Positions 47,720 through 59,673 of a stretch of 64,000 nt of DNA are shown in pieces. Within the stretch, counting starts at the first letter, position 1. The number at the start of each line of letters is the position of its first letter. This stretch comes from Sneathiella sedimenti (GTDB lineage Bacteria; Pseudomonadota; Alphaproteobacteria; Sneathiellales; Sneathiellaceae): positions 124,001 through 188,000 of the forward strand of contig NZ_JAFLNC010000001.1 in NCBI RefSeq assembly GCF_017313765.1. The letters run 5' to 3'. Both the position numbers and the translations under genes were made by a program. Under the pieces are notes generated by a model. That model saw only the letters and a list, made by a program, of their open reading frames with translations. It did not search any database and was not told the DNA's origin.

Positions 47720-48736
47720 ATGCACCTACTTAAGGAACGAGTTAAGTTGAAAAGAATTTTCGGCGCGGTTGTCAGCCTGGTTTTGATGATGCCCCTCACC
47801 AACACCCTGCAGGCCGCAGAAATTATGCGCTGTAGCCATCAGCTTTCGCCGAACAGCCATATTGCCAAAGTCATTGATCAGTGGGCCGCAGAAATAGAGA
47901 CTTTGTCAGAAAATGACATTGATGTGCAGATAAACGGCGCAAACAGTCTGGTAATGGCCCCACGAAATATAGCAGCTGTCCGCGCCGGGGAACTGGAATG
48001 TGCCTTTTCCAACAATCGGCACTGGACGGAAAGTCTTCCGCTGATGGATATCACGCTCGAACCATTTGCCCTGCGTAATGTTGAGATTCTTAAAAAATGG
48101 CGAGGATCGCCCGCGGCAAACCTGCTGGAGCAGAAGATACTGGAAACAGGGCTGACCAATGTCGCCTGGTTATTCACGACATGGCGTACCGCGATTACGT
48201 CAAACGGGCGACATATAATCAAGCCATCCGATTTTAAAGGTGTAAAGATTCAGGGGTTGGGGCCAATCTCGAACGCGGCGTTTGAGGCGCTTGGGGCAAT
48301 CCCCGTCGACATGTCCGACAAGAAGGCCTATGTCGCCCTTGAAAATGGTGATTTGGATGCGGGTCTTACAAATGTGTCCTCAGCCCTGTCTGCCCGATAT
48401 TTTGAAGTGCAGGACCATGTAACGATCCTGCCACTCTTCACCCTATTCTATAACGGATATGTCAACACCACATGGTACAACGCTTTGCCGGAGAAAAGTA
48501 AGCAGGCAATAAGAGAGGCAAGCGCAAGAGCCGCAATCTGGGCGATTGAGGCGAGCGAGATTTCGGCCGCCGCCGCACCAAACCTCCTAAAAGACGAGGA
48601 CATGCAAGTCTATGTAGCAACACAGCCGGAAATTGAGGCATTGAAAAACATCATGCGGCCTGCGTTTAACAAGAAGTTTCTCTCGACAACAGGCCAGTTA
48701 GGATCTGAGTTAATAACGTTGGTCGACGAGATGTAA
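47720..48736 (+). CDS. TRAP transporter substrate-binding protein, DctP-like (orphan)
   Basis: A periplasmic binding protein of about 330-338 residues. A signal peptide (core FGAVVSLVLMMPL, cleavage near LQAAEI) precedes the DctP-like chain: CSHQLSPNSHIAKVIDQWAAEIE (in parts), GVKIQGLGPISNAAFEALGAIP and ENGDLDAGLTNVSSAL. The DctQ and DctM membrane subunits are not next to it. The ATG at 47720 has no good ribosome-binding site; a TTG at 47747 with AAGGAACGAG upstream may be the true start. The 83-base gap from the RND gene suggests a separate transcript. Ligand unknown. Confidence 0.8.
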   Translation: MHLLKERVKLKRIFGAVVSLVLMMPLTNTLQAAEIMRCSHQLSPNSHIAKVIDQWAAEIETLSENDIDVQINGANSLVMAPRNIAAVRAGELECAFSNNRHWTESLPLMDITLEPFALRNVEILKKWRGSPAANLLEQKILETGLTNVAWLFTTWRTAITSNGRHIIKPSDFKGVKIQGLGPISNAAFEALGAIPVDMSDKKAYVALENGDLDAGLTNVSSALSARYFEVQDHVTILPLFTLFYNGYVNTTWYNALPEKSKQAIREASARAAIWAIEASEISAAAAPNLLKDEDMQVYVATQPEIEALKNIMRPAFNKKFLSTTGQLGSELITLVDEM

Positions 48737-48866: not shown

Positions 48867-50492
48867 ATGGGCGGAGATATTTGGCTGCGTCTAGCCGAAT
48901 ATTATAAGAGGACAAAGGCAACTTCCCTCGTTGAACGCTTCGACCGGGAGCCTGCGCGCTTTGAAGATTTCTCGATTACCCTCGATGACATGCTGCTCGA
49001 CTATTCCAAGACAAGCCTGGATGAAACATCCCGCGAATTGTTGCTGGAACTCGCCCGAACAACGGGAATAGAAAGCAAGCGCGATGCCATGTTTAAGGGC
49101 GCACAGGTGAATCTTACAGAAGGCCGTGCGGCACTGCACACCGCTCTTCGGAACCGGGGCGATGACCCGGTTTTTGCCGGAACTGTGGATGTCATGCCGA
49201 CTGTCAACGCGACGCTTAAACGCATGGCCGAGTTTGCGGAAGATATTCGTAGCGGAAAAATCTCTGCCTATAATGGCACGGCCTTTACCGACGTGGTTAA
49301 TATCGGCATTGGAGGATCGGATCTTGGTCCGGCCATGGCAACCCTTGCGCTGTCACCCTACCATGACGGACCGCGGGTGCATTTTGTCTCCAACGTCGAC
49401 GGGGCAGAGATTTCGGAACTGCTGGACAATCTCGATCCAAGACGGACATTTTTTATCATTGCATCAAAAACCTTTACGACAATCGAGACGATGACCAATG
49501 CGGCAACCGCCAAAAGATGGATGACGGCCGCAATTGGAGAAAGTGCGACAGAGCATTTTGCGGCAGTTTCCACCGCCTTTGAGAAAACTGCCGATTTCGG
49601 AATTTCCCCTGATAGGGTCATCGGATTTGAAGACTGGGTTGGCGGGCGTTATTCCGTCTGGGGCCCTATTGGTCTTTCCCTGATGATTGCGATCGGTTCA
49701 CAGAGATTTAGCGAGTTTCTGGAGGGCGGCAATGAGATGGATCAGCATTTCCGGACAGCGCCACTAAGGGACAATATGCCTGTCATGCTGGGCTTGATAG
49801 GAATCTGGCATAACAATATTTGCGGATATGAAAGTCGCGCCATCCTGCCATACGATCAGAGATTAGCCCGTTTGCCGGCTTATCTGCAGCAGCTCGATAT
49901 GGAGAGCAATGGCAAATCCGGTAAAGTTGACGGTGAGCATGTCAACCAACACACCGGGCCGATCGTCTGGGGAGAACCCGGCACGAACGGACAGCATGCC
50001 TTTTACCAGTTCCTCCACCAGGGTAGCCGGATCGTGCCCTGCGAATTTCTGGTTGCGGCTCAATCTCATGAAGAGAAGTTACAGCAACATCACCACCTTT
50101 TGCTCGCCAGCTGCCTGGCACAGTCAGAAGCACTCATGCGTGGACGCTGTCCTGACGATATTCCGGAAAAGCTCATCGTCAAAGGCCCCTCAAATGAAGA
50201 GCTCGACCTGACTGCCCATAAAGTATTTCCAGGAAACCGCCCCTCCACCACCCTAATCTACCGAAAGCTCACACCACGGACATTGGGCCGTATAATCGCG
50301 CTATATGAGCACCGCGTCTTCGTGGAAGGCGCCATCTGGGGAATTAACAGCTTCGATCAATGGGGCGTTGAACTCGGCAAGGAATTGGCTGCTACGTTAC
50401 TACCGCTGATCGGCAAAGAAACCGGATTTGAGGACAAGGATAGCTCCACACAAGGCCTGCTCAAAACCATCGCCCGCCTTCGCCGCGATTAG
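48867..50492 (+). CDS. pgi: Glucose-6-phosphate isomerase
   Basis: Interconverts glucose 6-phosphate and fructose 6-phosphate in glycolysis and gluconeogenesis; cytoplasmic dimer. At 541 residues it has the usual length. Signatures: IGIGGSDLGPAMATLAL near residue 150, FIIASKTFTTIETM, VGGRYSVWGPIGLSL, and GINSFDQWGVELGKELA near the C-terminus with the catalytic lysine. The catalytic-glutamate block is MESNGKSGKVDG. ATG follows GGGAGAAA. The convergent ABC ATPase gene ends four bases beyond its stop. Confidence 0.97.
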   Translation: MGGDIWLRLAEYYKRTKATSLVERFDREPARFEDFSITLDDMLLDYSKTSLDETSRELLLELARTTGIESKRDAMFKGAQVNLTEGRAALHTALRNRGDDPVFAGTVDVMPTVNATLKRMAEFAEDIRSGKISAYNGTAFTDVVNIGIGGSDLGPAMATLALSPYHDGPRVHFVSNVDGAEISELLDNLDPRRTFFIIASKTFTTIETMTNAATAKRWMTAAIGESATEHFAAVSTAFEKTADFGISPDRVIGFEDWVGGRYSVWGPIGLSLMIAIGSQRFSEFLEGGNEMDQHFRTAPLRDNMPVMLGLIGIWHNNICGYESRAILPYDQRLARLPAYLQQLDMESNGKSGKVDGEHVNQHTGPIVWGEPGTNGQHAFYQFLHQGSRIVPCEFLVAAQSHEEKLQQHHHLLLASCLAQSEALMRGRCPDDIPEKLIVKGPSNEELDLTAHKVFPGNRPSTTLIYRKLTPRTLGRIIALYEHRVFVEGAIWGINSFDQWGVELGKELAATLLPLIGKETGFEDKDSSTQGLLKTIARLRRD

Positions 50493-50501
50493 CGGCTAAT
50501 C
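50487..50501. repeat. Hairpin spanning both stop codons of pgi and the ABC ATPase gene
   Basis: GATTAG-CGG-CTAATC is a perfect 6-bp stem with a 3-base loop. It contains the pgi stop TAG (50490-50492) and, on the other strand, the ATPase stop TAG (50498-50496). No T-runs follow, so termination is unproven. Confidence 0.35.
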
Positions 50502-51464
50502 CAATAAATGGCAGGAAGCCAAATGACCATTGCCGCGGTCTTTCAACGCCGGGGCGATGCTATGGCATTTCTCGATCGCAACCGGACAACGGCCCGCAAA
50601 GCGACACCCGGTTGGCAGGTTTATCGGGCTTGGCGGATCTCCCGTCAGGGGTACCCGTTTTTCCGTACCATCCCGTGGACGAGCCTTCGGCACGGCGGCA
50701 AGCAAGGCCTTTGTGTAGGGATGCTGCGGATTGGAAAAAAGAGAAATGCGATCCGCCTGTTCAACTATCTGGCCGAGGTACATGACAGCGACATGATCAC
50801 AGAGATGCTGAACAACTCCGAGATCGTGGCTGATAAACAGGTACGTTAGCCCCAGATCCTCCTGCAGTTTCCGCATCAGGTTCAGGATTTGTGCCTGCAC
50901 CGCAACATCGAGGGCGGAGACCGGCTCATCACAGACTATCAATTCCGGTTTTGTTGCAAGCGCCCGGGCAAGCCCGATCCGCTGGCGCTGTCCGCCGGAA
51001 AACTGATGCGGGAAAAGGCTGGCCAGTTCCGGGCGCAGGCCAACCTGTACAAAGAGATCATGAACCATTTGGTCACGATCTTCTTCCTCGCCGATATTCA
51101 TGAGATCAAGTGGCTCGCGGACAATATCGCCAACCCGTCGACGCGGATCAAGCGAGGAATATGGGTCCTGGAACACCATCTGAACCTTGCGCCGGGCTTC
51201 GCGAAGGTCCTCTTTCTCCAACGAGCTGATCTCGACATCGCCAATTCTGATCGTGCCGGCCGTGATGGGAACGAGCCTTAGCACGGCGAGCGCAGTGGTG
51301 GTTTTCCCTGATCCGCTCTCCCCCACGATCCCGAGCGTCTGTCCCTTCGGAACGGAGAAACTCACACCATCGACGGCATGAACAATTTGAGCCTTGCGAA
51401 AGAGCTTCTTGCCACCAAAATGAACCTTCAGGTCCTGAACTTCCAAAAGCGTATTTTCACTCAT
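50496..51464 (-). CDS. Peptide/nickel-type ABC importer ATPase (DppF-like)
   Basis: A 322-residue ATP-binding subunit. Walker A GESGSGKTTTALAVL, signature FSGGQRQRIGLARAL, Walker B ELIVCDEPVSALDV, and the C-terminal oligopeptide/dipeptide extension GCRFAGRCPVAIEKC with cysteines that may hold an Fe-S cluster or metal. Partner of the DppD-like ATPase at 51461; the ATG overlaps that gene's stop by four bases. Last gene of the importer operon on the minus strand. Confidence 0.93.
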   Translation of the reverse strand: MSENTLLEVQDLKVHFGGKKLFRKAQIVHAVDGVSFSVPKGQTLGIVGESGSGKTTTALAVLRLVPITAGTIRIGDVEISSLEKEDLREARRKVQMVFQDPYSSLDPRRRVGDIVREPLDLMNIGEEEDRDQMVHDLFVQVGLRPELASLFPHQFSGGQRQRIGLARALATKPELIVCDEPVSALDVAVQAQILNLMRKLQEDLGLTYLFISHDLGVVQHLCDHVAVMYLGQIVEQADRISLFSNPQHPYTKALLAAVPKARPRDGTEKRVPLTGDPPSPINLPTGCRFAGRCPVAIEKCHSIAPALKDRGNGHLASCHLLD

Positions 51465-52453
51465 ACCGCCACCACATACTTCACATTGTAACAGGCGACG
51501 GAATGCGTTTTGTCGACCGCTTCGATATGCGGGCGTTCTTCTTCACAAATTGGGGTCTTATAGGGACAGCGCGGCGCAAAGGCGCAGCCTTTTCCCAGTT
51601 CCGTCAAAGACGGAACCACGCCTTTAATCTCGCTTAGGTACGGCCTGTCTTCAGTCGGGTTCTCCTCCAAATGGGGCACGCAAGCAATCAACCCCCGGGT
51701 ATAGGGATGCTGTGGATTTGTGAGAATATCTTCTGTCTTGCCGCTTTCGATGATATGCCCCGCATACATAACCGCCACACGATCGGCAAGTTCGGCAATC
51801 GCGCCCATATCATGGGTAATCATAATAATAGCAGTCCCCGTTTCACGCTGCAGATCATTCAGCAGATCAAATATCTGCGCCTGAACTGTCACGTCCAGCG
51901 CCGTCGTCGGTTCGTCTGCAATAAGAATTCGCGGGCGACAAGACAGTGCCATGGCAATCATCACCCGTTGCCGCATGCCGCCGGACAGTTCGTGCGGATA
52001 GGCACGGGCCCGGATTTCTGGTTCTGGAATGCCCACTTTCGTCAACATTTCAACGGCCCGCGCCCAGGCGTCCGCCTTCGAAATATCCTCATGCAGCAAC
52101 ACGCATTCCGCAATCTGATCACCAACCCGGAACACCGGATTAAGGGAGGTCATCGGTTCCTGGAAAATCATAGAGATGATGCCACCGCGAACCTGTCGCA
52201 TCCGGGCGGTTGACGCCTGCACCAGGTCTTCCCCGTCCAGCGATATAGAACCGTTTGTAATCTTCCCGGGCGGACTCGGCACAAGCCCCATGATGGAAAG
52301 CGCCGTCATGCTTTTCCCGCAACCGGATTCCCCGACGATACCAAGTATCTCACCGCTTTCCAGCTCAAGGGAAATCTCGTTGAGGACCCGCGCATTGCCA
52401 GCGCGGGTTTTAAAGTCAACGACCAGGTCCTTAATAGAGAGAATAGCAGCCAT
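51461..52453 (-). CDS. Peptide/nickel-type ABC importer ATPase (DppD-like)
   Basis: A 330-residue ATP-binding subunit. Walker [19 protein letters not shown], signature [15 protein letters not shown], Walker [15 protein letters not shown], and the C-terminal block [19 protein letters not shown]. Works with the DppF-like ATPase to power import through the DppB/DppC permeases. A TTG lies just before the ATG; the ATG (52453) shares one base with the permease stop, so I choose it. Translationally coupled to the permease. Confidence 0.93.
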
Positions 52454-53334
52454 CAACGCTCCCTCAGTTTCGGATTAAACGCATCATTGAGACCATCGCC
52501 AACAAGACTGAACCCAAGCACCGTCAGAAAGATCATGAAGCCCGGCAAGGTCACAACCCACCATCCATCGAGAATATATTCACGCCCTGCCCCGATCATC
52601 AGTCCCCAACTGAACATGTTCGGATCGCCCAGCCCCAGGAAGCTGAGGCCGGCCTCAAACAGGATTGCAATACCGACCGTCAAGGTTGCTGCCACGATTA
52701 GCGGCGCCAAGGCATTTGGCAATATAACCCGCCAGATGATCCGTCGGTTTTTCGCACCGATGGACCGGGCTGCATTGACATACTCGAGGTTGCGAATGCG
52801 CAAGAACTCCGCCCTGGTCAGGCGAGCCGTCGTTGGCCAACTGACAATTCCAATGGCGAGCGATACAACATAAATTGTCGGGGTAAAAAGGGTGACCAGC
52901 ACCATTGCAAAAAGCAAGGCCGGCAAAACCTGAAAGAATTCGGTAATTCGCATCAGGAACTCATCCACCATACCGCGGTAAAATCCGGCAAAGGCCCCGA
53001 CAAGGATACCGATCGTGATCGTGATGATCCCTGCAACCAGCCCGACATAGAGGGTTGCGGGGCCTCCGTGGATAAGACCTGCCAGAATATCCCGTCCAAG
53101 ATAGTCGGTTCCGAGGGGTGCCCGCTCCGTGGCGCCCGGCGGCGTAAGGGGAGCCCAGATAATTTCAAACGGATCAACCGGATAGAAAAACGGGCCGACG
53201 AAGGTGAATAAAATGACGAGGATCAGGATAAAAATTCCGAGCATGCCTGCCCAGCTTTGCCGAAAGGCACGTGCCGCTTCCCTCCAGGGGCTCTGGCTTT
53301 GAACAATATCCTGACTGCTTTCAATCACTGCCAT
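52453..53334 (-). CDS. Peptide-type ABC importer permease (DppC-like)
   Basis: A 293-residue membrane subunit with about six helices. The N-terminal region [25 protein letters not shown] and the BPD_transp_1 motif around [22 protein letters not shown] are typical of DppC/OppC. It pairs with the DppB-like permease encoded just upstream (gap of one base). Substrate class: oligopeptides, dipeptides, nickel or related small amides; cannot be narrowed. Confidence 0.92.
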
Positions 53335-53335
53335 G

Positions 53336-54313
53336 CTACCCGCCTGTCCGTATACGCGGATCGACTAATCGATAGACTAAATCGGTGATGAGATTTGCCG
53401 CGATCACCAAGAGAGAAGAGAAAAACAAAATTCCGAGAATGGTCGGATAATCACGGGCGAGAATGGACTCAAACGCGAGCGTACCCAGCCCGGGCCAACT
53501 GAAAACCGTTTCCACCAGAACGGCGCCCGAAATAATGCTGCCAAACTGAAGACCGGCAATTGTTACCACCGGTAAAATGGCGTTACGAAGCGCGTGATGA
53601 CCGTAGACTTTCACTTCCGCAACGCCTTTGGCCCGCGCTGTGCGAATATAGTCAGACCCCAGAATCTCCAGCATGCTGGCTCTGGTCAGCCGTGCATATT
53701 GGGCCAGATAAACGATCCCGAGGGTGAGGGCCGGCAATACAAGATGATAGAGGATGTCGACAACCCGATCGAAAAATCCCCCGCCCCTGGTGATATCATA
53801 CATATTGGCGATGGGAAATATCGGGTAAACCCAAGCAAACAAGATGACCAGCATCATGCCGGTCCAGAATATCGGTGCGGAATAACCAATGACGGAGACT
53901 ACCGTGACCAGGCCGCTGACAATGCCCTTGGGTTTATGGGACGCAAGAACCCCGAGCATGGTTCCCACAAATACTGCAAACAACAAGGCGGTTGCAACTA
54001 GGAGAATTGTCGGCCCGGCACGACCCGCAACAAGGTCCAGCACCGGTGCGTTGTAAAAGAAGGATTGCCCGAGATCCCCTTGCAGAGCCCGCGTCAGGTA
54101 AACGCCCAGCTGGACATAGACCGGCTTGTCGAGCCCGTAGGTCTTTCGGATATCCGCCAGCATTTCTTCCGTTGCGCCCCCCATTTCCCCGGCGATCACA
54201 TCCGCCGGATCACCCGGCGCAATATGGATTAGGAGAAAATTGAGGACCAGCACTGCCAGAATGAGCAAAAAGGCGTGCAACAAACGGCGGGCAACCATTA
54301 GCGTCATTGTCAT
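53336..54313 (-). CDS. Peptide-type ABC importer permease (DppB-like)
   Basis: A 325-residue membrane subunit. HAFLLILAVLVLNFLLIHIAPGDPADVI, split between helix one and the following loop, is the standard DppB/OppB start; the EAA-like loop reads IRTARAKGVAEVKVYGHHALRNAILPV and VETVFSWPGLGTLAFESI lies near the end. ATG preceded by GGGAGGTCAGG. Follows the binding-protein gene after 42 bases. Confidence 0.92.
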   Translation of the reverse strand: MTMTLMVARRLLHAFLLILAVLVLNFLLIHIAPGDPADVIAGEMGGATEEMLADIRKTYGLDKPVYVQLGVYLTRALQGDLGQSFFYNAPVLDLVAGRAGPTILLVATALLFAVFVGTMLGVLASHKPKGIVSGLVTVVSVIGYSAPIFWTGMMLVILFAWVYPIFPIANMYDITRGGGFFDRVVDILYHLVLPALTLGIVYLAQYARLTRASMLEILGSDYIRTARAKGVAEVKVYGHHALRNAILPVVTIAGLQFGSIISGAVLVETVFSWPGLGTLAFESILARDYPTILGILFFSSLLVIAANLITDLVYRLVDPRIRTGG

Positions 54314-54355
54314 GACCTGACCTCCCGCCGTATGTCGATAATCGGACGCGACATA

Positions 54356-55936
54356 TTACTTGATATAAACCTCATCGAGTGGTGACATCGCCCCCCAAAT
54401 CGTCAGGGGCGGATTACCTATATCCTTGCTATATGCCGTATGATAAGGGAGCACGTTAATAAAGGCGATAGGCGCATCATCAACAATTATCTCCTGCGCC
54501 TTCTTGTAGAGTGCAATGCGTTTTGCTTGATCAAGCTCTGACCCGGCTTCATTCAGGAGATTGTCGACTTCCTCATTGCAATAGCTCTGGGTATTCGACC
54601 AGATCACGCCCTTCTTTATGTTGTCGCAAAGATAGGTGCGGTGTACGCCAATAACCGGATCGCCCCAGTTAAAGACGATATCCATGCTCATATCGAAATC
54701 ATGGCCGCCAACACGCTTCGCCCAGGTCGGAAAGTCGGGAGAGGCCCGAAGCTCCACGTCGATGCCGACTTTCTTGAGCTGGGACTTCAGATACTCCGCC
54801 ACATTCTTCTGCAGTTCCGCAGATCCGGGAATATAGTCAACGGTCAATTGAAAACGCATATCGCCATCACCGCGCGGAAAACCGGCCTCATCCAGCATGG
54901 CATTGGCTTTGTCCAAATCAACGTCATATTTCTCTGCAGCGTCCGCATAGAAAGGACTGCCCGGAACCACCGGACCCGTAGCCGCCTTCGACTGACCGCC
55001 CAAAAGGGCATTGATGATAAAATCACGATCCATGGCGTAGGCAATGGCCTGACGAACACGCTTGTCTTTCAGATAATGATTGTTGGTATTGAAGGCGAGC
55101 CAGTTAATCGGTCCGACGGCTTCATATCCCCTGTCGGTAACAACCAGACCATCGTTCTTTTTCAACCGCGCAATGTCCTTGGTCGGTGCGAGGAAGGGAT
55201 ACATATTGATTTCACCGGTGTCGATGGCAAGCGCAAGACTTGTTAAATCCTTGTAATTCTTGATAATAATTTTATCGAGATACGGGCGCCCCTCGATAAA
55301 ATAATCCGGATTTTTCTCAAGTATGATGTATTCGCCGGGTTTGAACTCAACGAACTTGAAGGGCCCGGACCCTACTGGCGCATTATTCGCCGGGTGGCTT
55401 TTTGGGTCCTGCCCGTCTCCATAGACATGTTTTGGAATAATCGGAAGCAACGCACTCGACATTGCGAGCAGCGCCGCCGGATGCGGTTTTTCAAAATTGA
55501 TGACAGCTGTCAGCGGGTCGGGGGTATCGACGCCCGTAACCGGAGAAAACATCGACTTGAAAGGATGGTTATCCTTAACAGTCTGCAATGAGAAAGCGAC
55601 ATCTTCCGATGTAATGGGTTTTCCGTCATGGAATTTCGCATTCGCCCGGAGCTTCAGGGTAATGCTTTTCCCGTCATCGGATACGCTCCAGCTTTCAGCA
55701 AGATAAGGTTGCGGCTCCCATTTGTCATTAAAGCGCAGAGGGGTTGCGAAAATTTGCGTTCCTGGTACCGCCGTCGCAATGCCGGATTGAACCGCAGGGT
55801 TAAGATGCCGCGCTTTCTGCGTCGTGCCAAGGACCAACGTCCCACCGTTTTTTTGTTCATCCGCCTGGGTAAATGATGCGGCGCTGGCGGTCAAAAGCAT
55901 CGCCATTGCAGCCGCAATAAATCCTGTTTTCCTCAT
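54356..55936 (-). CDS. ABC importer substrate-binding protein, family 5
   Basis: A 526-residue periplasmic protein. The signal peptide (FIAAAMAMLLTASAASFTQA then DEQ) and family-5 blocks are clear: YLAESWSVSDDGKSITLKLR, FHDGKPITSEDVAFSLQ, and DKRVRQAIAYAMDRDFIINAL. Family 5 proteins bind peptides, nickel, haem or other small molecules. First gene of the importer operon; ATG preceded by GGAGGCAGG. A LysR-box-like repeat (55955-55967) lies 19 bases upstream. Confidence 0.93.
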   Translation of the reverse strand: MRKTGFIAAAMAMLLTASAASFTQADEQKNGGTLVLGTTQKARHLNPAVQSGIATAVPGTQIFATPLRFNDKWEPQPYLAESWSVSDDGKSITLKLRANAKFHDGKPITSEDVAFSLQTVKDNHPFKSMFSPVTGVDTPDPLTAVINFEKPHPAALLAMSSALLPIIPKHVYGDGQDPKSHPANNAPVGSGPFKFVEFKPGEYIILEKNPDYFIEGRPYLDKIIIKNYKDLTSLALAIDTGEINMYPFLAPTKDIARLKKNDGLVVTDRGYEAVGPINWLAFNTNNHYLKDKRVRQAIAYAMDRDFIINALLGGQSKAATGPVVPGSPFYADAAEKYDVDLDKANAMLDEAGFPRGDGDMRFQLTVDYIPGSAELQKNVAEYLKSQLKKVGIDVELRASPDFPTWAKRVGGHDFDMSMDIVFNWGDPVIGVHRTYLCDNIKKGVIWSNTQSYCNEEVDNLLNEAGSELDQAKRIALYKKAQEIIVDDAPIAFINVLPYHTAYSKDIGNPPLTIWGAMSPLDEVYIK

Positions 55937-55954
55937 CCTGCCTCCTGTGATTCA

Positions 55955-55967
55955 TGAGTGGTACTCA
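55955..55967. promoter_or_regulatory. LysR-box-like T-N11-A repeat upstream of ABC binding-protein gene
   Basis: TGAGT-GGT-ACTCA is an inverted repeat with T-N11-A spacing, the pattern bound by LysR-type regulators. It lies 19 bases before the binding-protein start and 56 bases after the end of the LysR gene. The pairing with that regulator is inference. Confidence 0.45.
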
Positions 55968-56022
55968 GTTTTTCTCACTGTAATCAGGCTAGTTCAGCGA
56001 CATTCTTTCGTAAAATATATTT

Positions 56023-56994
56023 TTATGCTGGTATTAGTACATTTTTTCGATGATCGTTTCCGGCCCGCCCCTCAGGCAGAACTGCCCTGTTAAAGGCACC
56101 ACTGTCGCGCAACCTGATGCAGGTATCAATGACAACCTGATCGACCTTGCTTAAATGTGCGTCAATGCGGTGAATAATACCATATTCCACGCTGCGATAC
56201 CCCGGCACGAGCGGAATGCGGACAAGATCACCAACCGTGTATTGCTGCTTTTGTAACGGACGGAGGTTGAAAATCGAATAGCCGAGACCGGCCGCCACCA
56301 TACTTCTCACCATTTCCGCCGATTGCGACGAATAGGCGACATGTGGTGTGAGGTTATTCTGCCCAAAGAGGCCAAACATATAGTCCCGCGTTTCATCCAG
56401 ATCGAGAAGCACCATCGGCTCGCGACAAACATCTTCAAGAGAGAGTTGCCGGCGCCGTGCGAGAGGATGACTGTGAGGGAGCACGATATGCGGCGGCGCG
56501 ACGAACATCGGTACAAAATTTATACTGGAAGGAAGATTGGCGCCCACCCCGATTGCCAGATCAATTTTGCTGTCAACAACATGCTGCATATTCCTGGAGA
56601 CATCTCCCTCCGTAAAGTGGATGGAGATACCCGGATGATGATCGGCTACCGATTTAGTAATCAATGGCAGAATAATAGGAGCTGCCGGGGTAAAGCATCC
56701 CATACGGACGGCCCCGTTAATCGCATTCGCCTGTTCGTCGACCGCCTCTTCGAACGATCGGTGTGCCTTGAGTAGCTGGCGCGCATTAGACAAGAACACA
56801 TGGCCGAACTGGGTTGTACTGATGCCTTTTGACGGGAGTCTGGTAAACAGCTTTTTGTTCGTCTGGATCTCGATCGCATCGATGGCAGAGGATATAGAAG
56901 AGGCGGATATATTCAACGCCTTTGCCGCCCCGGTTATCGACCGGTGTTGGGCCGCAACATCTATATAATTTAGCTGTTTAAGCGTATAGCGCAT
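56023..56994 (-). CDS. LysR-type transcription regulator
   Basis: A 323-residue LysR protein. The winged-helix DNA-binding part (residues about 1-60) reads TLKQLNYIDVAAQHRSITGAAKALNISASSISSAIDAIE in parts; the effector domain follows from about residue 90. It lies between the importer operon (same strand, downstream) and the divergent amidohydrolase. That position makes it the likely regulator of both, responding to the imported compound or its product. Confidence 0.9.
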   Translation of the reverse strand: MRYTLKQLNYIDVAAQHRSITGAAKALNISASSISSAIDAIEIQTNKKLFTRLPSKGISTTQFGHVFLSNARQLLKAHRSFEEAVDEQANAINGAVRMGCFTPAAPIILPLITKSVADHHPGISIHFTEGDVSRNMQHVVDSKIDLAIGVGANLPSSINFVPMFVAPPHIVLPHSHPLARRRQLSLEDVCREPMVLLDLDETRDYMFGLFGQNNLTPHVAYSSQSAEMVRSMVAAGLGYSIFNLRPLQKQQYTVGDLVRIPLVPGYRSVEYGIIHRIDAHLSKVDQVVIDTCIRLRDSGAFNRAVLPEGRAGNDHRKNVLIPA

Positions 56995-57103
56995 TCATTC
57001 CTCTATTTTTTACAATAATAACCCCGGAATAAACTATTTTTCAGAGGTTAATGAGCGCCTTAAACTCTGTCCATAAAAAAGCGAAATAGGGAGGACCCTG
57101 ATC

Positions 57104-58735
57104 TTGTCGGCCATCACCGTATTCAGTGCCAAGAAAATTATCACCATGAACCCTGTACGCCCTCATGCGACACATGTAGCGATCCGTGACGGACGCGTGC
57201 TCGCAACCGGGACGATTGAGGAAATTAGTGGTTGGGGAGACTATCAGCTTGATGACAGCTTTGCTGACAAGGTGATCATGCCGGGCTTTGTGGAAGGTCA
57301 CTGCCATCTAATGGCGGGCGGCATCTGGCGCTATACCTATGTCGGATATCAAGATCGTGTTGACCCTGATGGACGGCAATGGCCGGGCGTCAAGTCATTA
57401 GAGGAAGTACTGGCGCGCCTTCAGGAAGCAGAGGCCGACCTGGGACCGGATGATCCGCTCGTGGCCTGGGGATTTGACCCGATTTTTCTAATGGATCGCC
57501 GGCTTGACAAGAACGACCTCGATAGTGTCAGCCAAAACCGCCCAATAGCGATAATACATTCAAACTTTCACTTGATGACGGTGAATTCAGCATCGCTCAG
57601 CCTCGCAAACTATGTTGCAGATATGGACATTGATGGGGTTGCTATTGGCCCTGACGGCACGCCGAACGGGGAGTTGCAGGAAATGGCTGCAATGTTTCCC
57701 ATTATGCGGCGCCTCGGAATCGATCTGCGGGAGTTGGGGCGAACGACAAGAAGCCTTGTCGATTTTGGCAAGGTCTGCAATCGCGTCGGCGTCACGACAG
57801 CAGCGGACCTGATCAACGACCTCCCGGATGAGGATGTCGCGCAAATGCGGGTCATCACGGATGGTTCGGATTATCCGATCCGCCTGATGTCGTTGTTAAA
57901 CGGCATCTCCCAGCCCGCGGAAGAAACACGCGAACGGGCGCTCGAACTTAAGGCGAAAAGTACTGAAAAACTGCGTCTTGGCGCAGTAAAGATCATTACG
58001 GATGGATCAATCCAGGGATTCACGGCCCGGCTTCGCTGGCCCCATCATTATAACGGCGCCCCCAACGGCATCTGGAACATCGCGCCGGAACAGTTAAATG
58101 TTCTTGTCAGTGTCCTGCATGAGGCGGGCGTTCAGATGCATATTCATACCAATGGCGACGAAGCAATCGAAGTCGCGCTGGAAGCGTTGGAACAGGCGAA
58201 AATCAAGAAAAACCGCCCCGACCTTCTCCATGTCCTCCAGCATTGCCAGATGGCGGATCGAGCACAATTTCGCAAGATGAAGCGTCTCGGCGTAGCGGCC
58301 AACCTGTTCTCAAACCACATATACTATTTTGGCGACAAGCATTATGAACTGACTATCGGGCCGGATAGGGCGCTCCGCATGGATGCCTGCCAGTCGGCCA
58401 TCGATTATGGCGTTCCCTTCGCCATCCACTCCGATGCACCCGTGACTCCTATGGCTCCATTATTTACCGCATGGTGCGCCGTTAACCGGTTAACTGAAAG
58501 CGGAAAGTGTCTCGGTGAGTATGAGCGAATTGGTGTTTCAGAAGCCTTGCAGGCGATTACCCTTGGCGCAGCGACCACGCTTCATATGGACCATGAAGTC
58601 GGGTCAATAGAAACGGGAAAATGGGCCGACTTCGCTATTCTTGATGATGACCCTGAAACAATCGGGGCTGGGAAATTGAAAGACGTCGGCATCTGGGGAA
58701 CCGTCCTTGCGGGGGAGAAGCATAAAATTCCATGA
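57104..58735 (+). CDS. Amidohydrolase, YtcJ-like (amidohydrolase 3)
   Basis: A 543-residue metal-dependent hydrolase. Metal-binding motifs of the amidohydrolase superfamily: VEGHCHLMAGG near residue 65, VQMHIHTNGDEAIE near 345, LQHCQMADRAQF near 382 and AIHSDAPVTPM near 445. It likely hydrolyses a C-N bond in an amide, imide or formyl group. The start is TTG with GGGAGGA nine bases upstream. Its stop overlaps the ATG of a COG0523 GTPase by four bases. Divergent from LysR and the importer, which probably supplies the substrate. Confidence 0.9.
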   Translation: MSAITVFSAKKIITMNPVRPHATHVAIRDGRVLATGTIEEISGWGDYQLDDSFADKVIMPGFVEGHCHLMAGGIWRYTYVGYQDRVDPDGRQWPGVKSLEEVLARLQEAEADLGPDDPLVAWGFDPIFLMDRRLDKNDLDSVSQNRPIAIIHSNFHLMTVNSASLSLANYVADMDIDGVAIGPDGTPNGELQEMAAMFPIMRRLGIDLRELGRTTRSLVDFGKVCNRVGVTTAADLINDLPDEDVAQMRVITDGSDYPIRLMSLLNGISQPAEETRERALELKAKSTEKLRLGAVKIITDGSIQGFTARLRWPHHYNGAPNGIWNIAPEQLNVLVSVLHEAGVQMHIHTNGDEAIEVALEALEQAKIKKNRPDLLHVLQHCQMADRAQFRKMKRLGVAANLFSNHIYYFGDKHYELTIGPDRALRMDACQSAIDYGVPFAIHSDAPVTPMAPLFTAWCAVNRLTESGKCLGEYERIGVSEALQAITLGAATTLHMDHEVGSIETGKWADFAILDDDPETIGAGKLKDVGIWGTVLAGEKHKIP

Positions 58736-59673
58736 TACAACGGAAACAACCACTCCCCATGACAGTATTGGGGGGATTTTTGGGATCAGGGAAGACGACC
58801 TTGGTCAACCATCTGCTGCGCCATGCGGATGGGAAACGCATTATGGTCCTCGTGAACGATTTTGGCGAGCTTCCGATCGATCAAGACCTTATTGCGGCCA
58901 AGGACGGTAATATCCTGACCCTGGCCAATGGCTGCGCCTGCTGCTCTATGGGAGCCGACCTCTATAAAGCGTTCGCGGCCGCCCTCGACTATGCCCCAGC
59001 GCCGGACCACCTGCTGATCGAGGCAAGCGGCGTCGCAGAACCCAAACGGATTGCCAATTTTGCGCGGGCGGAACCGGACCTCACCTTGAACGGGGTCATA
59101 ACCATGGTTGATGCGGTGAATTTTGAGAAGACGCGCACCGATAACAGACTATCCGACATTGTCGAAGCGCAAATCACCGGCGCCCATATGCTCTTGCTTA
59201 ACAAATGTGATCTCGTCCCAACGCAGGATTTGGAAAAATGTGAATCCGTTTTGCGTGGATTTAACGGCACCGCGCCGCTCATCCGCGTCGAGCATGGTGT
59301 CTTGTCCGCGGATATCTTCTTTGGTGAGGACATCAAAGCCGGCCGCTTAAAGGAAATATCTGAGGGCTCCCATACGCATACTCATGAAGCTGACTTTGCT
59401 CGATGGTCAGTTGCCACCGATACGGAAATTGACAAAGCCGCTCTTCGGGAGACACTCCTGCAACTCCCGTCGTCTATTTTACGTGTGAAAGGCATATTTC
59501 GCGCCTCTGGTGAGGACGGCCTCTGGATCGCCCATAAAGTCGGTGCGCATATAGATATTTCTCGATTGCCTACAGACTCCTCGTTTTCAGGAAATACTGG
59601 CTTCGTTGCGATCGGTCTATCCAACCAGGATTTCACCACTATCCTGGACACCGCTTTTCAATCCATAAAATAG
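58732..59673 (+). CDS. COG0523 (CobW-like) metal GTPase
   Basis: A 313-residue GTPase of the COG0523 family of metal chaperones. Walker A GGFLGSGKTTLVNHLL, the metal-binding CxCC motif in NGCACCSMG near residue 65, EASGVAEPKRIANF, and NKCDLV for guanine specificity. A histidine-rich stretch SHTHTHEADFARW near residue 215 is typical. COG0523 proteins deliver zinc, cobalt or other metals to client enzymes. The ATG lies within the amidohydrolase stop codon, suggesting the amidohydrolase is the client, which is inference. Not the cobalamin-pathway CobW by context. Confidence 0.9.
   Translation: MIQRKQPLPMTVLGGFLGSGKTTLVNHLLRHADGKRIMVLVNDFGELPIDQDLIAAKDGNILTLANGCACCSMGADLYKAFAAALDYAPAPDHLLIEASGVAEPKRIANFARAEPDLTLNGVITMVDAVNFEKTRTDNRLSDIVEAQITGAHMLLLNKCDLVPTQDLEKCESVLRGFNGTAPLIRVEHGVLSADIFFGEDIKAGRLKEISEGSHTHTHEADFARWSVATDTEIDKAALRETLLQLPSSILRVKGIFRASGEDGLWIAHKVGAHIDISRLPTDSSFSGNTGFVAIGLSNQDFTTILDTAFQSIK

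Follow-up and report, generated by a model that had tools for sequence, protein, structure and literature searches.

The analysed window, a stretch of 64,000 nucleotides from Sneathiella sedimenti, contains two adjoining plus-strand genes, which encode a PF07969/YtcJ-like metal-dependent amidohydrolase (57104–58735, 543 amino acids) and a COG0523/CobW-like G3E GTPase (58732–59673, 313 amino acids). Both were assigned from their open reading frames, domain searches and AF2 models. The TGA stop codon of the hydrolase (58733–58735) and the ATG of the GTPase (58732–58734) are shared as ATGA (58732–58735), just as the initial annotation had read these open reading frames. The hydrolase begins with a TTG at 57104, which is preceded by a GGAGG ribosome-binding site, and most relatives retain a TTG or GTG start. 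The Sneathiella genome holds two COG0523 genes and several PF07969 genes, and an adjacent pair is found only here.

On the minus strand, a gene for a LysR-family regulator (56023–56994; open reading frame and domain search) diverges from the hydrolase gene, and a complete five-gene Opp/Dpp-type importer (50496–55936) lies beyond it. The importer genes encode a periplasmic binding protein of SBP family 5 (Opp/Nik/Dpp type, 54356–55936), permeases B (53336–54313) and C (52453–53334), and ATPases D (51461–52456) and F (50496–51464). The domain search thus bears out the divergent LysR and peptide-type importer previously annotated at 50496–56994. The divergent promoter region between the LysR and hydrolase genes (56995–57103) was aligned among 12 relatives, and a AATAAACTATTTTTCAGAGG block and an inverted arm, CCTCT(GA), are conserved within it in Sneathiella relatives. 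This block with its inverted arm is a plausible candidate LysR operator, and by-eye inspection of the same conserved alignment recognised no metal-responsive element. In the Zur-regulated COG0523 subgroup, such an element would be an upstream Zur box. Beyond the importer, a gene for a DctP-type TRAP binding protein (47720–48736) directly precedes a glucose-6-phosphate isomerase gene (48867–50492, named by eye).

The hydrolase matches PF07969 (Amidohydro_3) at 242 bits against a cut-off of 29.7, and no NCBIfam equivalog reaches its own cut-off. In the AF2 model (pLDDT 94.6), the best-matching folds are 3igh and 3icj, metal-dependent hydrolases without assigned function. The predicted binuclear site is composed of H66, H68, K296, H348, H380 and D444 (HxH, Lys, His, His and Asp), with K296 probably carboxylated. 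The same family and ligands are found in NfdA, the Bilophila metallo bile-salt hydrolases and the Pyrococcus proteins 3igh and 3icj, although the identity to the solved PF07969 structures is only about 20%. We sorted the homologues by identity into clade A (at least 43%), clade B (about 30–36%) and remote homologues below these, with a clear gap between 43% and 36%. Across clades A and B the six ligands are invariant or nearly so, and the remote homologues keep them almost as strictly. Moreover, the clade A hydrolases have a loop of their own, NHxxYxxDxH (404–413), and clade-typical residues including E190, Q304, Q379 and Q382, which judging from the sequences are probably related to the substrate. 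Among the Sneathiella relatives, one hydrolase carries an internal deletion (L066) and another an in-frame stop (L004); both come from metagenome assemblies, in which errors are possible.

The GTPase matches cobW (PF02492) at 162 bits against a cut-off of 20.7, and its C-terminal domain matches CobW_C at 31.5 bits against 22. The P-loop GxLGxGKT (GGFLGSGKTT), the Walker-B glutamate E97 and the NKCD motif are all present. The metal motif, G-C68-x-C70-C71, reads GCACC (residues 67–71), and GCxCC is kept in 126/126 distinct paired GTPases. A long His stretch is a feature of many COG0523 proteins; here the linker is a short SHTHTH, and the long stretch is for the most part missing (18 of 106). The AF2 model (pLDDT 87) is closest in fold to E. 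coli YjiA (1nij/4ixm), which is also the nearest solved structure in sequence (28% identity) and is likewise a two-domain G3E GTPase with the CxCC motif. CobW and ZigA have the COG0523 family in common with the GTPase, but the scores fall far under their curated cut-offs (142 bits against 332 for CobW, TIGR02475; 115 bits against 600 for ZigA, NF038288), and both identities were rejected. No cobalamin (cob) genes are present among the neighbouring open reading frames. In one Sneathiella relative (L009), the GTPase is split across two frames.

How often are the two genes paired? In a class sample of 386 alphaproteobacterial genomes, drawn evenly, the GTPase follows immediately downstream, on the same strand, after 45 of 47 clade A hydrolases. 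In the first exception (G199:C91), 349 bases separate the end of the hydrolase from a contig edge. In the second (G287:C51, L142), a recombinase-like open reading frame of 625 amino acids (by eye) occupies the place of the GTPase, and another pair in this genome is intact. A separate sample, drawn across the phylum (397 genomes), contains ten further clade A hydrolases, nine of which are paired, some outside the Alphaproteobacteria; the lone unpaired one (G619) has its best GTPase match elsewhere at 35%. Pairing declines with distance. An adjacent GTPase accompanies 15 of the 27 clade B hydrolases in the class sample and none of the 30–36% homologues in the phylum sample, and adjacency is nearly absent below 30% identity, where two remote cases are clear (L254 and L261). 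The initial annotation had asked whether homologous hydrolases occur mostly without the GTPase: this fails at identities of at least 43%, while about half lack it at 30–36% and nearly all do below 30%. In the reverse search of the class sample, such a hydrolase directly precedes 53 of the 57 top-scoring GTPases, with agreement dropping fast below these. When pairing is mapped as a label on the hydrolase tree, 10 changes are required, as compared to 42 in shuffles. An ATGA-compatible GTPase start is found in 74 of 139 distinct clade A pairs, and such overlaps are by themselves frequent for adjoining bacterial genes. It is therefore the conserved pairing (45/47 and 9/10 clade hydrolases), rather than the overlap, that places the pair beyond chance, and these counts together with the reverse search (53/57) rule out chance adjacency.

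The paired GTPases form one clade (77 clade A and 14 clade B rows, SH-aLRT 94), which is separate from the majority of other COG0523 proteins, among them the paralogue in the Sneathiella genome itself. The GTPase is kept even where the two genes are unlinked. Three Roseobacter-type genomes (G409, G410 and G411) have a clade A hydrolase without an adjacent GTPase and a clade GTPase elsewhere, and G410 has an additional, linked hydrolase–GTPase pair. A fourth unlinked locus, in Shimia (L056), was left out of this count, since its hydrolase is truncated near a contig end. Likewise, G287 and G361 have a clade B hydrolase without an adjacent GTPase and retain a clade GTPase elsewhere, and in genus g65 the clade B GTPase lies away from the clade B hydrolase. 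In the 11 genomes with both a clade A and a clade B pair, all 24 GTPases (24/24) are nearest to GTPases of other genomes that accompany the same hydrolase type. Across the clade A pairs, GTPase similarity follows hydrolase similarity with a Spearman coefficient of 0.57, which partly reflects shared species history. No such hydrolase was found in the genomes of two clade GTPases (G363 and G337). The clade GTPases of loci L255 and L256, which have no hydrolase, are sister to the GTPase of G289; a luciferase-like monooxygenase gene lies upstream of the one in L256 and apparently also of that in L255, and these GTPases possibly have another partner.

The surroundings of the pair are much less constant. 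The Opp importer and divergent LysR are retained in Sneathiella, Pelagibius, Paracoccus and several Roseobacters. Elsewhere, the pair is found with a sodium:solute symporter (Burkholderia and Caballeronia), a branched-chain-type ABC transporter (Mesorhizobium), TRAP genes (a Sulfitobacter plasmid), an MFS-like protein (Caulobacterales, named by reading the sequence), or TRAP genes and an N-acyl-D-amino-acid deacylase-like gene (Roseobacters, also named by reading the sequences). The last arrangement is seen in the Roseobacter-type loci L015, L016, L019, L025, L026 and L028, most of which add another LysR-like gene. The deacylase-like neighbour is a lineage-limited hint that the substrate may be N-acylated. 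Sulfonate- or taurine-type neighbours (TauD, xsc, TauE/SafE-like), which would point to a substrate of that kind, are confined to scattered loci in some Burkholderiales and alphaproteobacteria. In L113, L114, L145 and L148, TauD with a tau-type ABC transporter, xsc/pta, or a TauE/SafE-like gene with an aldehyde dehydrogenase-like gene lie no more than several kilobases from the pair. Because transporters and regulators vary around the constant pair, the set of Opp importer, LysR and pair is one assembly among several. We thus rejected the idea that the importer and LysR define the system, and the earlier description of importer, regulator, hydrolase and GTPase as one complete module is not supported as an obligatory arrangement. 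The two-way linkage, the transporter swaps, the retention of the GTPase when unlinked and the type matching in two-pair genomes support a GTPase that is specific to this hydrolase clade.

We consider it rather probable that the hydrolase and GTPase are an inherited pair of enzyme and maturation factor, with the GTPase serving as a dedicated COG0523 metallochaperone. The binuclear PF07969 amidohydrolase would belong to a substrate-inducible catabolic operon, which in Sneathiella would receive its substrate through the Opp-type importer and would probably be regulated by the divergent LysR. In its GTP form, the GTPase would take up a divalent metal at its CxCC site, with zinc as the likeliest. 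The metal-bearing GTPase would then dock onto the apo-hydrolase, and GTP hydrolysis would deliver the metal to the H66/H68/K296/H348/H380/D444 site. Zinc is favoured because Zn(II) is the preferred in vivo metal of the related COG0523 proteins YeiR and YjiA (PMC7895991), and because zinc gave the strongest enhancement of a tested PF07969 hydrolase (PMC13081902). On evidence that is wholly genomic, the GTPase most likely loads metal into the hydrolase; the contact, the metal transfer, zinc as the metal, the LysR control and an amide-type substrate are what we infer from it.

Do the metal ligands explain the need for a chaperone? We rejected this idea, since the ligands are identical between paired and unpaired homologues; the metal site alone does not account for any such need. 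The proposal of a dedicated metal chaperone, already made in the initial annotation, thus stands as an association (linkage, transporter swaps and type matching) and finds no backing in the metal site. Several further observations count against it: the unpaired 30–36% homologues, G619, the hydrolase-less G363 and G337, and the fact that amidohydrolases of this superfamily commonly acquire their metal in E. coli with no dedicated chaperone (PMC13081902). The main doubt comes from the unpaired homologues: as they carry the same ligands, the GTPase may be needed only when metal is scarce or to make loading faster. In a related alternative, which we regard as unlikely, the GTPase would secure the metal of the hydrolase only when metal is scarce or against mis-metallation, and would be dispensable in rich media. 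CobW provides a parallel, as it boosts B12 output under limiting cobalt (PMC7895991), and many of the paired organisms are marine Rhodobacterales and Sneathiellales. The closest genetic precedent that we found for the role of the GTPase is also negative and would fit such dispensability. In Sinorhizobium meliloti, deletion of the cobW-like gene SMc02978 beside the formamidase gene brbF caused no riboflavin auxotrophy in the medium used (PMC9478397). As here, a cobW-like gene is conserved by a metal-dependent amide hydrolase in alphaproteobacteria; unlike the PF07969 hydrolase, BrbF has a creatininase-type fold. Against a role restricted to scarcity, by-eye inspection recognised no metal-responsive promoter element, the conserved block resembles a LysR operator, and the near-perfect retention of the GTPase suggests regular use.

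Less probable still is that the GTPase serves another metalloprotein or a general metal supply, and is merely co-transcribed with the hydrolase. The clade GTPases of G363 and G337, which lack a detectable hydrolase, would be explained in this way, and most COG0523 genes of the sampled genomes do sit elsewhere. However, the linkage in both directions, the transporter swaps, and the matching of GTPase and hydrolase types in two-pair genomes point to this hydrolase as the client. Finally, a metal acquisition route is very improbable. In such a route, the importer would take up a metal–ligand complex, the amidohydrolase would cut the ligand and the metal set free would pass to the GTPase. It would find support in the binding protein, which has the nickel binder NikA as its second-best NCBIfam match and the staphylopine–metal binder CntA as another, both well below cut-off. 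Against it, the regulator is a LysR, and the pair also occurs beside catabolic genes and transporters of the TRAP, Na+ symporter, MFS and branched-chain ABC types.

How does the putative maturation pair compare with known systems? Nha3 is a COG0523 dedicated maturation factor of nitrile hydratase (PMC2770081, PMC9164220). The Nha3/Fe-type nitrile hydratase system resembles the present one in that a COG0523 GTPase with the CxCC motif is clustered with a single metalloenzyme, and the GTPase described here is likewise encoded with a single client across genomes (45/47, 9/10 and 53/57 in reverse). In contrast, the client of Nha3 is an alpha/beta nitrile hydratase containing iron, while the client here is a PF07969 amidohydrolase, its metal is probably zinc and the maturase role is putative. 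YjiA is described without a defined role (PMC7895991), whereas the present GTPase is tied to a hydrolase. The report on the Bilophila bile-salt hydrolase makes no mention of a COG0523 partner (PMC13081902), and we found no description of the hydrolase–GTPase pairing in the literature searched; a neighbourhood figure or network in an earlier family-wide study may have shown it. Dedicated maturation by COG0523 proteins is itself already known; what looks new is this hydrolase clade as a candidate client class.

A 2022 review named it as the open problem of the family that most COG0523 clusters lack both a characterised member and a known client (PMC9164220). In a broader reading, for and against which we see an even balance, the PF07969 hydrolases of this clade and its sister clade would be a class of COG0523 clients unrecorded in the literature searched, with private, non-interchangeable GTPases that move with them between operons of differing transporters, and metal loading would be induced together with the catabolic substrate instead of by metal starvation. 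The pair comes with natural controls, namely the unpaired homologues with the same ligands, the genomes in which the genes are unlinked, and those with two non-matching pairs. It would let one ask why some enzymes with an ordinary zinc site hold on to a private metal loader driven by GTP when their close relatives manage with none, and it is a strong candidate, open to direct testing, for a new system of enzyme and metal loader.
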